In this document: piece after piece, positions 11,810 to 19,833 of the stretch
Position numbering within the stretch: the stretch's first letter is position 1
Layout of the letters: every line of letters starts with the position of its first letter
IMG/VR virus record: IMGVR_UViG_3300007344_000338
Location: 1 to 20,648 of that record
From: a virus
DNA: 20,648 bases
Strand: one strand, 5' to 3'
Position numbers and translations under genes: made by a program
The notes under the pieces: generated by a model
Databases searched by the model: none
What the model was told of the DNA's origin: nothing
Seen by the model: only the letters and a program-made list of their open reading frames with translations

Positions 11810-12004
11810 TCATGTCCATTGTTTTTTGTCTATGTTGTCAGTAATGACCTGGCGCACTGCGCTGGGCGTTGTCAGGGCTGGATAATGTTCGCACAAGGCG
11901 TCGATCAGGTCAGCCGTCAAATATACTGAAACCTTCTTCCCCGCCTGTTTCCCCTTTGGCTTGCGGCCCGCGCCTTGGCGATAGCCGCCACGGTTTTCAG
12001 TCAT
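11810..12004 (-). CDS. RHH-like DNA-binding protein (intact copy)
   Basis: A 64-residue protein with a basic Gly-rich start (GGYRQGAGRKPKGKQAGKK), much like an AT-hook, followed by a strand-helix-helix pattern (VSVYLTADLIDALCEHY, then SAVRQVITDNI) typical of ribbon-helix-helix proteins. Such proteins bind DNA as dimers and often repress their own operon. AAAGG lies about 8 bases before ATG 12004; the gene starts 8 bases inside the end of the upstream methyltransferase gene. A second, broken copy is found at 12982-13116, in the same position relative to the second methyltransferase, because the region is tandemly duplicated. Confidence 0.6.
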   Translation of the reverse strand: MTENRGGYRQGAGRKPKGKQAGKKVSVYLTADLIDALCEHYPALTTPSAVRQVITDNIDKKQWT

Positions 12005-12926
12005 TGTATTGCCTTTCTGCTTCTAATATAGCGTTGCCGATCATCTCCGGTATCTGCGGGACAACGGCATTGCCTAGCGCCTTGAGACGTTTTGCGCGGT
12101 TTTTTGTGATCGTGGTAGTGCGGGCTATTCCGTATTCCCAAGTTCCGTCCAGCCAGGCGGAAACCCCATGAGGGGTTCGACCCATTCCGGGTTCAGGTTT
12201 CCTGATCCTTCCAGCGCCTGCATTTTGTGGTCCAGCCGGTCGTTCGTTCTGTCCCTTCCGTTCTTGCGTGTCAGGGCTGCTTCGCTCGACCCCTTGTACA
12301 TGGTCGCCGTTGGTGTCGGATACATCTTCGGCCATGTTTTCGGGTTGTTCACTTGGGCCGGTAGAGAAGAAGCGACATTCTCCGACCTGTCCCCCATCCT
12401 CTTTGTAAATGTCGAGTTGCTCTCGCCCCGCCCCGTGTCGCTGGCTTTGGGCGTGAGCCACAATCCAGAGCCTGTCGCGTCGGTGCGAGGCACCGAGGGC
12501 GCAAGCTGGAATAAGGAACGTCCTGCAGGCGTAGTCTTCACTTTCCAAGTCAGAAAGCACAGCGTCGAGGCCCATGCTGATGTGCCCAGCAACATTTTCG
12601 CCAATGACCCAAGCGGGCCGGTGTTCTTTGATGCAAGCAAACATCGATGGCCAGAGGTGGCGGTCATCGTCCGCGCCTTTTCGCTGCCCGGCTGTAGAGA
12701 AAGGCTGGCAGGGGTATCCCCCTGAAATAACGTCAACTGGTCCGTCATGAGTTAAGTTCCTTACATCTTCATAAATGGGTACATCGGGCCAATGCTTCCG
12801 CAGCACTTGCTGGCAGAACGGCTCTATCTCGCAGAAGCCTACAGTCTCGAACCCGCCCGTTCGTTCAAGGCCCAGTGAGAACCCGCCGATGCCGCTGAAA
12901 AGATCAAGAACCTTTAGTTTTTTCAT
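11997..12926 (-). CDS. DNA (cytosine-5)-methyltransferase, copy 1
   Basis: A 309-residue enzyme that would transfer a methyl group from S-adenosylmethionine to cytosine C5 at a specific site. Motifs in order: I, DLFSGIGGFSLGL (8-20); IV, GGYPCQPFSTAGQRKG with catalytic C73; VI, GENV (109-112); VIII, HRRDRLW (148-154); X, LGNAVVPQ (about 284-291). The region between VIII and X, where the target-recognition domain lies, is polar and low in complexity here. A second ORF (12125-12748) occupies most of the gene in the +1 frame. It is 30 residues longer than copy 2. It likely protects phage DNA from host restriction or alters host expression; that role is inferred. The start ATG 12926 overlaps the stop of a truncated upstream gene (TAATG). 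Confidence 0.9.
   Translation of the reverse strand: MKKLKVLDLFSGIGGFSLGLERTGGFETVGFCEIEPFCQQVLRKHWPDVPIYEDVRNLTHDGPVDVISGGYPCQPFSTAGQRKGADDDRHLWPSMFACIKEHRPAWVIGENVAGHISMGLDAVLSDLESEDYACRTFLIPACALGASHRRDRLWIVAHAQSQRHGAGREQLDIYKEDGGQVGECRFFSTGPSEQPENMAEDVSDTNGDHVQGVERSSPDTQERKGQNERPAGPQNAGAGRIRKPEPGMGRTPHGVSAWLDGTWEYGIARTTTITKNRAKRLKALGNAVVPQIPEMIGNAILEAERQYND
12125..12748 (-). CDS. Overprinted ORF in the +1 frame of methyltransferase copy 1
   Basis: A 207-residue ORF wholly inside the methyltransferase gene. A Shine-Dalgarno AAGGAA lies 8 bases before ATG 12748. It opens with MTDQLTLF, continues with GSEKAR.MTATSG, MLLGTSAWAS and LTWKVK.TPAG, then has LTPKASD and PTPTA motifs, and ends in LNPEWVEPLMGFPPGWTEL. 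The same order of motifs is found in the matching ORF of copy 2. From memory this pattern is a family met in phage genomes alongside cytosine methyltransferases; the end resembles the motif IX region of some single-frame C5 enzymes (LSP.FVEWMMG.P.GW). It may be a partner or target-recognition subunit. Expression is not proven. Confidence 0.7.
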   Translation of the reverse strand: MTDQLTLFQGDTPASLSLQPGSEKARTMTATSGHRCLLASKNTGPLGSLAKMLLGTSAWASTLCFLTWKVKTTPAGRSLFQLAPSVPRTDATGSGLWLTPKASDTGRGESNSTFTKRMGDRSENVASSLPAQVNNPKTWPKMYPTPTATMYKGSSEAALTRKNGRDRTNDRLDHKMQALEGSGNLNPEWVEPLMGFPPGWTELGNTE

Positions 12927-13029
12927 TACCCTAACCCCAGCGCAGCCGCAACCTTGTCTTCGTTCATAACGTCATTGCGGCTCATGTAGACGGCGGGTCC
13001 GTCAAGTTCGACCTTGAAGCCTTCACCGT
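12926..13029 (-). pseudogene. 3' remnant of the 13948-14190 gene
   Basis: On the leftward strand this stretch encodes the last about 35 residues of the small gene found whole at 13948-14190 (FKVELDGPAVYMSRNDV, then MNEDKVA and ALGLG). Its upstream part has been replaced at the CCGT junction by the start of the RHH-like gene in a different frame, and no start codon with a ribosome site remains. Its TAA still overlaps the ATG of methyltransferase copy 1, so the coupling point survives though the gene does not. Confidence 0.75.
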
Positions 13030-13116
13030 CAAATATACTGAAACCTTCTTGCCCGCCTGTTTCCCCTTTGGCTTGCGGCCCGCGCCTTGGCGATAGCCGC
13101 CGCGTTTTTCAGTCAT
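12982..13116 (-). pseudogene. Truncated second copy of the RHH-like gene with a chimeric tail
   Basis: A 44-residue frame from ATG 13116. The first 30 residues match the intact RHH-like protein (MTEKRGGYRQGAGRKPK, then KKVSVYLT), keeping the basic AT-hook-like part and the first beta strand. The remaining 14 residues (VKASRSNLTDPPST) come from an out-of-frame reading of the adjoining gene remnant. The helices needed for a full fold are lost. The ATG and its position 8 bases inside the end of methyltransferase copy 2 are unchanged, so a short basic peptide might still be made. Confidence 0.75.
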
Positions 13117-13948
13117 TGTATTGCCTTTCTGCTTCTAGTATCGCATGGCCTATCATTTTGGGTATTTGTGGCACTACAGCATTTCCGAGCGCCTTCAATC
13201 TATTTTTGTCCAGTTTACGGGAAACCCCATCATTTCTTCCACGAACAGCGGGGACAGTGGGCCATCCCAATGCATTGACAAGTTGATCTGCTTCCCCTTC
13301 TCCAGTCGCCTTCTGATTGCTGGGTTCTTCGGCCCACCCCTGTCCCGATTGTCGGATGCTGTTGGTGTCGGCATGAACGCGCTTGCTATTGAGCGCATTA
13401 TCCTTCCCCCCTTGTCCAGATTGGCTAGGCTTTTCCAATTGACGTTGTAATCGTGATGCTCCGATGCCGCTGGTGTGGGCAACAATCCAGAGCCTGTCGC
13501 GTCGGTGCGAGGCACCGAGGGCGCAAGCTGGAATAATGAATGCCCGGCAGGCGTAGCCTTCACTTTCCAGGTCAGATAGCACATCGTCGAGGCCCATGCT
13601 GATGTGCCCAGCAACATTCTCTCCAATGACCCAAGATGGCTTGTGTTTTTTGATGCAATCAAACATCGCTGGCCAGAGGTGGCGGTCATCTGCCGCGCCT
13701 TTTCGCTGCCCGGCTGTAGAAAACGGCTGGCAAGGGTATCCTCCGGTAATAACGTCAACTGGTCCTTCATGGTGTAACTCCCTAACATCTTCGTAAATGG
13801 GTACATCAGGCCAATGCTTACGCAACACCTGTTGACAGAACGGCTCTATCTCGCAAAAGCCGACAGTCTCAAAGCCGCCTGTGCGCTCTAGTCCCAGCGA
13901 AAAGCCGCCGATGCCAGAGAACAGGTCAAGCACTTTCAGTTTTTCCAT
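13109..13948 (-). CDS. DNA (cytosine-5)-methyltransferase, copy 2
   Basis: A 279-residue C5-cytosine methyltransferase. I start it at ATG 13948, which overlaps the upstream stop (TGATG); a GTG one codon earlier is possible. The motifs match copy 1: DLFSGIGGFSLGL, GGYPCQPFSTAGQRKG with catalytic C73, GENV, HRRDRLW and LGNAVVPQ. The first about 155 residues and last about 30 are close to copy 1; the segment between motifs VIII and X is different and about 30 residues shorter, so its target sequence may differ. A +1-frame ORF (13195-13770) overlaps it as in copy 1. The two enzymes together could modify two different sites on phage DNA. Confidence 0.9.
   Translation of the reverse strand: MEKLKVLDLFSGIGGFSLGLERTGGFETVGFCEIEPFCQQVLRKHWPDVPIYEDVRELHHEGPVDVITGGYPCQPFSTAGQRKGAADDRHLWPAMFDCIKKHKPSWVIGENVAGHISMGLDDVLSDLESEGYACRAFIIPACALGASHRRDRLWIVAHTSGIGASRLQRQLEKPSQSGQGGKDNALNSKRVHADTNSIRQSGQGWAEEPSNQKATGEGEADQLVNALGWPTVPAVRGRNDGVSRKLDKNRLKALGNAVVPQIPKMIGHAILEAERQYND
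13195..13770 (-). CDS. Overprinted ORF in the +1 frame of methyltransferase copy 2
   Basis: A 191-residue ORF from ATG 13770, preceded 8 bases upstream by AGGGAG; an earlier in-frame start exists but lacks this site. It starts MKDQLTLL, keeps GSEKARQMTATSG, MLLGTSAWAS and LTWKVKATPAG, has LLPTPAASE and MPTPTASD, and ends PLSPLFVEEMMGFPVNWTKI. The start lies at the same place relative to the methyltransferase start (178 bases) as in copy 1, and the motifs agree though the spacers differ. Retention of start, ribosome site, open frame and motifs in both copies argues that this protein is made. Confidence 0.7.
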   Translation of the reverse strand: MKDQLTLLPEDTLASRFLQPGSEKARQMTATSGQRCLIASKNTSHLGSLERMLLGTSAWASTMCYLTWKVKATPAGHSLFQLAPSVPRTDATGSGLLPTPAASEHHDYNVNWKSLANLDKGGRIMRSIASAFMPTPTASDNRDRGGPKNPAIRRRLEKGKQINLSMHWDGPLSPLFVEEMMGFPVNWTKID

Positions 13949-14190
13949 CACCCTAAACCCAACGCTTCCGCAACCTTGTCTTCATTCATAACGTCATCGC
14001 GGCTCATGTAGACGGCAGGGCCATCCAATACGGCCTTAAAGCCTTCGCCGTGGGCACGCTGCGCGTACCATTGGCCATGGTCGTTGCAGTTTATGTATGC
14101 GACCAGGTTCGACATTGAGCCGGTGTGACCTGCGTACATATGATACTGATTTCGGTAGTTGTTCAGAATGATGTGATTTGTGGTGGTCAT
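13948..14190 (-). CDS. Small hypothetical protein at the head of the leftward operon
   Basis: An 80-residue protein, first gene left of the operator, with a perfect AAGGAG ribosome site 7 bases before ATG 14190. It is rich in Asn, His and Tyr (NNYRNQYHMYAGHTG, then CNDHGQWYAQRAHGEG) and ends YMSRDDVMNEDKVAEALGLG. No known domain. Its stop overlaps the start of methyltransferase copy 2. A truncated copy of its 3' end sits before methyltransferase copy 1. As promoter-proximal gene with the best ribosome site, it should be made in quantity early. Confidence 0.6.
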   Translation of the reverse strand: MTTTNHIILNNYRNQYHMYAGHTGSMSNLVAYINCNDHGQWYAQRAHGEGFKAVLDGPAVYMSRDDVMNEDKVAEALGLG

Positions 14191-14309
14191 TGGTCTGCTC
14201 CTTTGTTTGTTTTTACCATTTTAATACAAGGGCACATAATCATAATACAAACCCCTAAATTCAAAAAAGTTGCGTTCATTCGGGGTTGTCTTTCTCCTAT
14301 TGGTGTTCG

Positions 14310-14356
14310 TGTAAACATTATGTTGACACCCGCGCCCTGTCAACATAATGTTTACA
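14310..14356. promoter_or_regulatory. Perfect inverted repeat: paired operators and facing promoters
   Basis: Two 19-base arms (14310-14328 and 14338-14356) are exact reverse complements around CCCGCGCCC. Each arm is itself an imperfect 17-base dyad: GTAAACAT-T-ATGTTGAC at 14311-14327 and GTCAACAT-A-ATGTTTAC at 14339-14355, giving four half-sites of form GT(A/C)AACAT. Each arm holds TTGACA, and the opposite arm holds CATAAT 15 bases away, so symmetric rightward (TTGACA 14323-14328, CATAAT 14344-14349) and leftward promoter elements overlap the operators. The 15-base spacer is short of the usual 17. The Cro-like product of the next gene is the likely ligand. Confidence 0.75.
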
Positions 14357-14382: not shown

Positions 14383-14616
14383 ATGACCGATCAGGAAATA
14401 CTGAACGCCTTGGAAGATCACTATAATGGGCAGACTGGATTGGCCGCTGAAATGACACGCCAATTTGGCAATGGCATCACCCGGCAACGCCTGTCTAATT
14501 GGCGGACGCGGGGCATTCCATACAACATGCGGGCCAGCGTGGTGCAGCTGTATGCTGACGCCTTTAAGCTGTCTCAAGATGATACGCTCAAACTAATGGT
14601 GCCGCCCAATGCCTAG
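14383..14616 (+). CDS. Cro-like HTH regulator
   Basis: A 77-residue protein, first gene right of the palindromic operator. It fits a small Cro/YdaS-type DNA-binding protein: a helix around LNALEDHYNG, then QTGLAAEMTRQFGNGITRQRLSNWRTRGIP as a helix-turn-helix (residues about 17-46), then a closing helix (RASVVQLYADAF). Such proteins repress the divergent promoter pair and often their own gene. The ribosome site is weak, which suits a low-level regulator. It overlaps the RusA gene by 8 bases. The pairing with the 14310-14356 operators is inferred from position. Confidence 0.65.
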   Translation: MTDQEILNALEDHYNGQTGLAAEMTRQFGNGITRQRLSNWRTRGIPYNMRASVVQLYADAFKLSQDDTLKLMVPPNA

Positions 14617-15031
14617 TATACAATTTACCGTGCCAGGCAAGCCAAGCGGTAAAGGGCGCCCGCGCTTCTCCCGAAAGTCTGGCCGCGCCTTTACGCCTGC
14701 CAAGACACAATCCTATGAAGCCCAGGTTAAGCACTTCTGCGCCGAAGCAATGGGCAACATGCCGCCCATTGAAGGTCCGATCCGCGTCGAGATTATTGCC
14801 GTCTTTGCCAAAGCAAAAAGCTGGTCGAAAAAGAAAACCCGCGAAACCTATTGGCATACGTCCAGCCCCGACGCTGACAATCTGGCGAAGGTGCTGGATG
14901 GCCTGAACGGTATTGCGTGGGGGGATGATCGACAAGTGGCGCTGTTGCAGGTCTCTAAAATTTATTCCGACGATGGTCGCGAATATATGCAAGTATTCAT
15001 TTCCGACATGGAGCAAAAAACAAATGAATGA
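14609..15031 (+). CDS. RusA-like Holliday-junction resolvase
   Basis: A 140-residue endodeoxyribonuclease that would cut branched DNA formed in phage recombination and replication. The RusA signature is present: VPGKPSGKGRPRF at the N-terminus, SPDADNLAKVLDGLNG with D88, D90 and K94, and AWGDDRQV with D106 and D107. These acidic residues bind the catalytic metal in the family. The length is typical. The gene overlaps the Cro-like gene by 8 bases and the next gene by 8 bases, so all three are coupled. It is the first enzyme of the rightward early operon. Confidence 0.9.
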   Translation: MPSIQFTVPGKPSGKGRPRFSRKSGRAFTPAKTQSYEAQVKHFCAEAMGNMPPIEGPIRVEIIAVFAKAKSWSKKKTRETYWHTSSPDADNLAKVLDGLNGIAWGDDRQVALLQVSKIYSDDGREYMQVFISDMEQKTNE

Positions 15032-19146: not shown

Positions 19147-19515
19147 ATGAAAAACCCGCACGCCCATGAAATCGACAAGCACGTCGGCGCCCGGATCAAA
19201 CAGGTAAGGCGTGACCGTGGCATATCTCAATCTGACTTGGCTGACAGACTAGGCATTACATTTCAACAAGTGCAGAAATATGAAAACGCCAGCAACCGCG
19301 TTTCAGCGGGCAAGCTGTCGATGATTGCCAGCATTCTCGGTGTAAAGGTCTCTGACTTTTTCCCCGGCAATGCCCCCGCGCCAAGGGGCGGCAAGGTTTC
19401 CCGTGGCGTTCTTTCTATCGCCAATTCAATCCGCAAAATTAGCGACCCGGACGCGCAGGAATTGGCGTTAAGTGTCGCCCTCGCGTCGGTTGATGCTGTG
19501 CGCAAGGCGCAATAA
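19147..19515 (+). CDS. XRE-family HTH transcriptional regulator
   Basis: A 122-residue protein with AGAAAGG upstream of ATG 19147. Residues about 10-70 form a Cro/CI-type helix-turn-helix (VGARIKQVRRDRGISQSDLA, then LGITFQQVQKYENASNRVS, SMIASILGV), with the style of alphaproteobacterial XRE regulators. The remaining part contains no peptidase or other effector domain but a helical segment (ELALSVALASVDAV) that may dimerise. It ends the rightward early operon before two terminators. It may control late genes or the 14.3 kb switch; which operators it binds is unknown. Confidence 0.75.
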   Translation: MKNPHAHEIDKHVGARIKQVRRDRGISQSDLADRLGITFQQVQKYENASNRVSAGKLSMIASILGVKVSDFFPGNAPAPRGGKVSRGVLSIANSIRKISDPDAQELALSVALASVDAVRKAQ

Positions 19516-19588: not shown

Positions 19589-19614
19589 GACGCCTGCTAT
19601 CCGGCGTCTTTTTT
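19589..19614 (+). terminator. Second rightward terminator
   Basis: GACGCC (19589-19594) and GGCGTC (19603-19608) form a perfect stem around TGCTATCC, followed at once by six T (19609-19614). It overlaps the stop of the leftward HTH gene and acts on rightward transcripts that pass the first hairpin. Confidence 0.75.
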
Positions 19615-19833
19615 CCCTAAGTCCAGCGCCGCTTCCGCGACCTTAACCGCTGCATCGTGGCACTTCATAAACAACAGCATCCGCGTCATCCATTTGGGTA
19701 TGGGCACCTCGCCATTCTCCCAGCGCCGCACAGTGCGCATATCAACGCCCACATGCCCGGCAAATTGTTTTTGTGTCATGCCCAGTGCCGTCCTGGCGTC
19801 GTAAATGTCGTCCGGTAATGTTACTGTATTCAT
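19597..19833 (-). CDS. Small HTH DNA-binding protein
   Basis: A 78-residue protein with a helix-turn-helix at residues about 11-45 (DARTALGMTQKQFAGHVGVD, then RTVRRWENGEVPIPKW), of the XRE/antitoxin-like type, followed by a helix (MLLFMKCHDAAVKVAEAAL). The ATG at 19833 overlaps the stop of the upstream coiled-coil gene by one base. No toxin gene is seen beside it, so an antitoxin role is not supported; a phage repressor or regulator is more likely. Confidence 0.65.
   Translation of the reverse strand: MNTVTLPDDIYDARTALGMTQKQFAGHVGVDMRTVRRWENGEVPIPKWMTRMLLFMKCHDAAVKVAEAALDLGKKDAG

Follow-up and report, generated by a model that had tools for sequence, protein, structure and literature searches.

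The palindrome at 14310–14356 is probably an autoregulatory operator pair of the Cro type, recognized by the HTH protein encoded at 14383–14616. Operator pairs are well-known control elements of phages; the unusual aspect of this one is the symmetry of its layout. The sequence analysed here (hereafter, the window) is the complete IMG/VR record IMGVR_UViG_3300007344_000338 (20,648 bases), which probably covers only part of a larger phage (related records are 35–39 kb). It contains the following features.

About 1–11.1 kb, rightward: structural genes.
11.2–14.2 kb, leftward: gene group with two C5-cytosine methylases.
13948–14190, minus strand: 80-aa protein, function unassigned, heading the leftward group and followed by C5-cytosine methylase genes.
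14197–14276, minus strand: leader of the leftward genes, carrying promoter-like elements and with its end close to an AAAGGAG ribosome site.
14310–14328: candidate operator dyad 1, TGTAAACATTATGTTGACA, centre 14319, fitting TAAAC-N5-GTTTA with one mismatch.
14317–14343, minus strand: candidate mirror-image leftward promoter (TTGACA 14343–14338, N15, CATAAT 14322–14317).
14323–14349, plus strand: candidate rightward promoter (TTGACA 14323–14328, N15, CATAAT 14344–14349).
14329–14337: 9-nt G/C-only spacer CCCGCGCCC, symmetry axis 14333.
14338–14356: candidate operator dyad 2, TGTCAACATAATGTTTACA, centre 14347, an exact inverted copy of dyad 1, fitting TAAAC-N5-GTTTA with one mismatch.
14383–14616, plus strand: Cro-like HTH protein of 77 aa with QRLSNWRTRGIP as its recognition helix region, the proposed operator ligand.
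14609–15031, plus strand: RusA-like endonuclease, gene 2 of the rightward early group.
14.4–19.5 kb, rightward: early group (Cro-like, RusA, exonuclease-like, AAA helicase-like, XRE).
After 19.5 kb, leftward: small genes.

The divergent genes 13948–14190 (−) and 14383–14616 (+) are separated by 192 bp, and the palindrome lies in this gap. In the leftward group, a cassette (80-aa gene, cytosine methylase, and 64-aa gene; 11810–14190, minus strand) is apparently tandemly duplicated, and remnants of the 80-aa gene (about 12935–13029) and of the 64-aa gene (about 13028–13118) were found between the two methylase genes. Two more HTH proteins are encoded convergently at 19147–19515 (+) and 19597–19833 (−). 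PADLOC reported methylase models only; neither the Cro-like nor the 80-aa protein was matched.

The perfect 19-base inverted repeat described in a preliminary reading of the sequence was confirmed, as were its 28-bp distance between operator centres and its spacer composed entirely of G and C: the arms pair at 19 of 19 positions. This is far beyond chance, given that the next-best perfect short-loop inverted repeats in the window have arms of 11 and 10 nt, and that the longest perfect arm among 60 Markov shuffles was 13 nt (mean 9.6). The 17-base dyads of the preliminary description hold as the core of each arm; the whole arm, however, forms a dyad of 19 bp in which all pairs match except that of positions 4 and 16 (A against G). 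The proposed search for further dyads, run across the window with TGTMAACATNATGTTKACA, returned only the two palindrome copies at ≤3 mismatches (0.03 expected). Their half-sites read GTTGACA (inner) and GTTTACA (outer), and the departure from the dyad consensus creates a perfect −35 element on either strand. Such symmetry may have originated from selection for two promoters or from one operator having recently been duplicated in inverted orientation.

As single-stranded DNA, the palindrome forms a stable hairpin (−18.4 kcal/mol, z −7.4), which would suit an element that works by its secondary structure (a cruciform or transcript hairpin), such as a replication origin, a recombination site, or a terminator. 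Nevertheless, there was no indication that the suggested cruciform forms, the palindrome lies between divergent genes and is not followed by a T tract, a terminator scan gave no call there, and no Rfam family matched. In addition, relatives of this locus (see below) keep individual dyads and not one long palindrome. Taken together, these results make a structural role highly improbable, the least probable of the readings considered here.

The product of 14383–14616 was modelled with AlphaFold at a pLDDT of 91 and is predicted to fold into five helices; at 77 aa, it has the form of a small single-domain HTH protein expected of Cro-type autorepressors. Its profile matched Xfaso 1 Cro (PDB 3bd1; E 2.4e-5), the model superimposed on that structure with a VIA Z of 6.3 (rmsd 2.4 over 59 residues), and the helices compare as SNWRTRG in the window protein and SNWRARG in 3bd1. 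The predicted fold is a common HTH and is not diagnostic: Cro, CI, POU, and Aca proteins appear together in the VIA list at tied Z values, and a Foldseek search with the model returned nothing below E 0.001. No Pfam or NCBIfam model matched the window protein at E 0.1 (including YdaS_toxin PF15943 and carph-isopro NF046037), whereas 13 of 14 aligned family members match NF046037 and 11 of 14 match PF15943. Because it is the sole window gene with the NWRTRGIP helix, and the only one whose product carries NWxxRG at all, this protein is the likely ligand of the palindrome dyads, as had been proposed. The other regulator put forward as a ligand, the 19147–19515 product, has a helix (TFQQVQKYENAS) without NWxxRG, which argues against it.

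Loci encoding NWRTRGIP relatives were collected from viral contigs and genomes. TAAAC-N5-GTTTA dyads occur in their upstream regions, many of which separate cro from a divergent CI-like gene; all of these relatives share the helix string, as the search was partly seeded with it. The motif was first spotted by eye, and its derivation was then repeated blind, using all 5-mer half-sites with gaps of 0–12 in 13 upstream regions that excluded the window. TAAAC-N5-GTTTA ranked first among about 13,000 dyads (28 matches vs 1.38 expected), and half-site spacings other than N5 showed no comparable excess. Five held-out loci, fetched later, contained 13 matches (0.75 expected; reached in 0 of 500 shuffles); a larger count of 30 includes duplicates and loci already used, and 13 is the figure to cite. 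The 20.6-kb window has just three matches at one mismatch, two of which are the palindrome dyads, and two such matches occurred in 9 of 20,000 shuffles of the intergenic region. The claim that the palindrome is the operator of a phage repressor thus finds support in a family-wide comparison. It also fits this claim that the divergent CI genes of several relatives encode helices of a similar NWxxRG type, which would be expected if two repressors used common operators. The NWRTRGIP string is tied to these operators across CI/Cro-type regions from different bacteria, and such a link between helix and operator would permit the prediction of binding sites for many uncharacterised phage repressors. 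A relative from the same group (G001) was rejected as a member of the operator class: its Cro-like homologue (34.7% identical) has a different helix, NWHERGIP, and its upstream region contains no dyad at ≤2 mismatches. As a single case, it is weakly consistent with the link between helix and operator. Dyad matches elsewhere in two other genomes (G002 and G003) had three mismatches each.

The window shares the helix and two upstream dyads with this class, as defined here, and departs from it in spacing: most relatives have operator centres 15 or 22–24 bp apart (usual, not universal), and 28 does not occur among them. This counts against the suggestion that the 28-base distance serves cooperative binding. 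At 10.5 bp per helical turn, spacings of 28 and 23 bp are roughly half a turn out of phase, and a cooperative contact like that of the relatives is unlikely at this spacing.

The relatives also bear on another reading, a lambda-like CI/Cro immunity switch with the XRE protein from 19147–19515 as the CI acting on the same operators. In its favor, relatives with TAAAC-N5-GTTTA usually have a divergent CI-like gene beside cro, and a second XRE protein is present in the window. That protein, however, differs from the CI-like proteins of most relatives in its helix, and its gene sits 4.5 kb away with no operator copy nearby. No divergent NWxxRG CI gene sharing the operators was found in the window, a record that may be a fragment; the divergent gene encodes the 80-aa protein. 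We therefore regard an immunity switch of this kind as very unlikely.

Under the favored reading, the Cro-like protein would bind the palindrome as an operator pair, with one dimer per 15–19 bp dyad. Dyad 1 would cover the −35 element and dyad 2 the −10 element of a rightward early promoter (TTGACA-N15-CATAAT) predicted to drive the cro-like, rusA, exonuclease-like, and helicase-like genes, and the accumulated protein would then turn off its own early operon. The mirror promoter would be blocked at the same time as the rightward one, and the two could not be occupied jointly. Since each operator is an exact inverse of the other, the pair also spells out the leftward elements, which may fire or stay silent given that the leftward group comes with its own promoter-like leader.

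The TTGACA and CATAAT elements noted in the preliminary description are indeed present symmetrically on both strands, and their spacer of only 15 bp is short. For this reason, a promoter scan with 16–18 bp spacers detected none at the palindrome. When spacers of 14–20 bp were allowed, the palindrome promoters had the highest score on each strand of the intergenic region, and an equally good score was reached in 2.3% of shuffles (scored with hexamer weights). At the sequence level, both dyads overlap the best plus-strand candidate. In several relatives, an operator lies upstream of cro between TTGACA-like and TTTAAT/TAGAAT-like elements (N16–18). The best rightward promoter in five of them (L006, L007, L009, L010, and L016) has a spacer of 17–18 bp; the operator lies within it and overlaps the −10 element at one end. 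The half-site variant GTTGACA supplies the −35 element in both L009 (TTGACA inside GTGTTGACA) and the window (counterpart ATGTTGACA). The window geometry differs, with one dyad per hexamer region, the 15-bp spacer, and centres 28 bp apart, and the predicted rightward promoter thus matches the family pattern only in part.

The leftward leader (14197–14276) is conserved in four relatives (L189, L190, L191, and L193) that have different small genes downstream and lack the palindrome. By eye, its promoter-like elements read TTTACA-N17-TATATT in L193 and, more weakly, TTTGTA-N17-TGTATT in the window. A separate promoter probably drives the leftward genes, and the mirror promoter may arise only as a side effect of the operators' symmetry; the window has the weaker leader of the two, and this leaves room for some leftward contribution by the mirror promoter. 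The leader also contains a G-run/C-run inverted repeat (AGGGG ... CCCCT in L193), and this repeat of a portable leader is possibly an operator for another regulator. A possible 19-codon leader ORF, with AGGAG upstream, was seen by eye at about 14221–14280 (−). A related leader-like promoter region is found in L199 (6300–6390), with a AGGAACGTAGTTCCT repeat just before TATATA and another small gene downstream.

The preliminary description had presented the palindrome as a two-way switch. A truly symmetric switch, in which both promoters fire and compete for polymerase while one protein represses both, overlaps the operator-pair reading, adds leftward activity to it, and would coordinate the early and methylase operons. 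The hexamers and spacing are identical on both strands, each promoter is top-scoring on its own strand, and divergent genes flank the palindrome, all of which agree with such a switch. Against it stand the conservation of the leftward leader where the palindrome is absent, the short spacer, and the exact symmetry itself, which forces a second promoter as sequence even if it is not used. We consider the symmetric switch possible but rather unlikely, and none of the findings requires it. A little less likely still is that one repressor equally controls two interleaved, mutually exclusive promoters and that in this way the replication and methylase operons are coordinated from one element in a phage lacking an adjacent CI. 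The mirror elements of the earlier description therefore stand, whereas an equal two-way switch is doubtful, with no adjacent CI and a leader that is palindrome-free in four relatives.

The exact double-dyad pattern was not found in any other viral contig, and the early region had no DNA or protein matches among cultured phages. Dyad-like matches in other loci fell for the most part at a single recurring position within the gene of the 497-aa virion protein, and were attributed to codon constraint and discarded as operators. Octadecabacter DB virus 2 and MW202879, which were the closest by structural genes in the phage collection, have divergent regions without these dyads, as judged by eye.

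Among known systems, the closest solved relative of the Cro-like protein by profile is Xfaso 1 Cro of Xylella (PDB 3bd1), which has a similar fold. The sequence identity is low, POU domains, C.EcoT38I, and Aca7 are equal to it in the fold comparison; what was compared here was sequence and fold. Bacterial bidirectional promoters share one −10 element (Warman et al. 2026; PMC12825309). The window likewise has a symmetric sequence that could load polymerase either way, one binding event excluding the other, but its −10 and −35 elements are separate for each direction and interleaved, with no −10 used on both strands and expected starts about 46 bp apart. In the immunity region of CP-933P (E. coli O157:H7), which has the CI analogue PaaR2 on the opposite side and four palindromes of 18 bp, the Cro analogue YdaS is reported to repress both divergent promoters, which overlap the repeated palindromes to which it binds; the reported inverted-repeat consensus GTTTAGTAA contains GTTTA (PMC8630535). 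Unlike CP-933P, the window has two dyads and no CI next door, and its protein falls below the Pfam model. The proposed function nevertheless fits that of YdaS, and the YdaS_toxin model matches most of the aligned family members (11 of 14).
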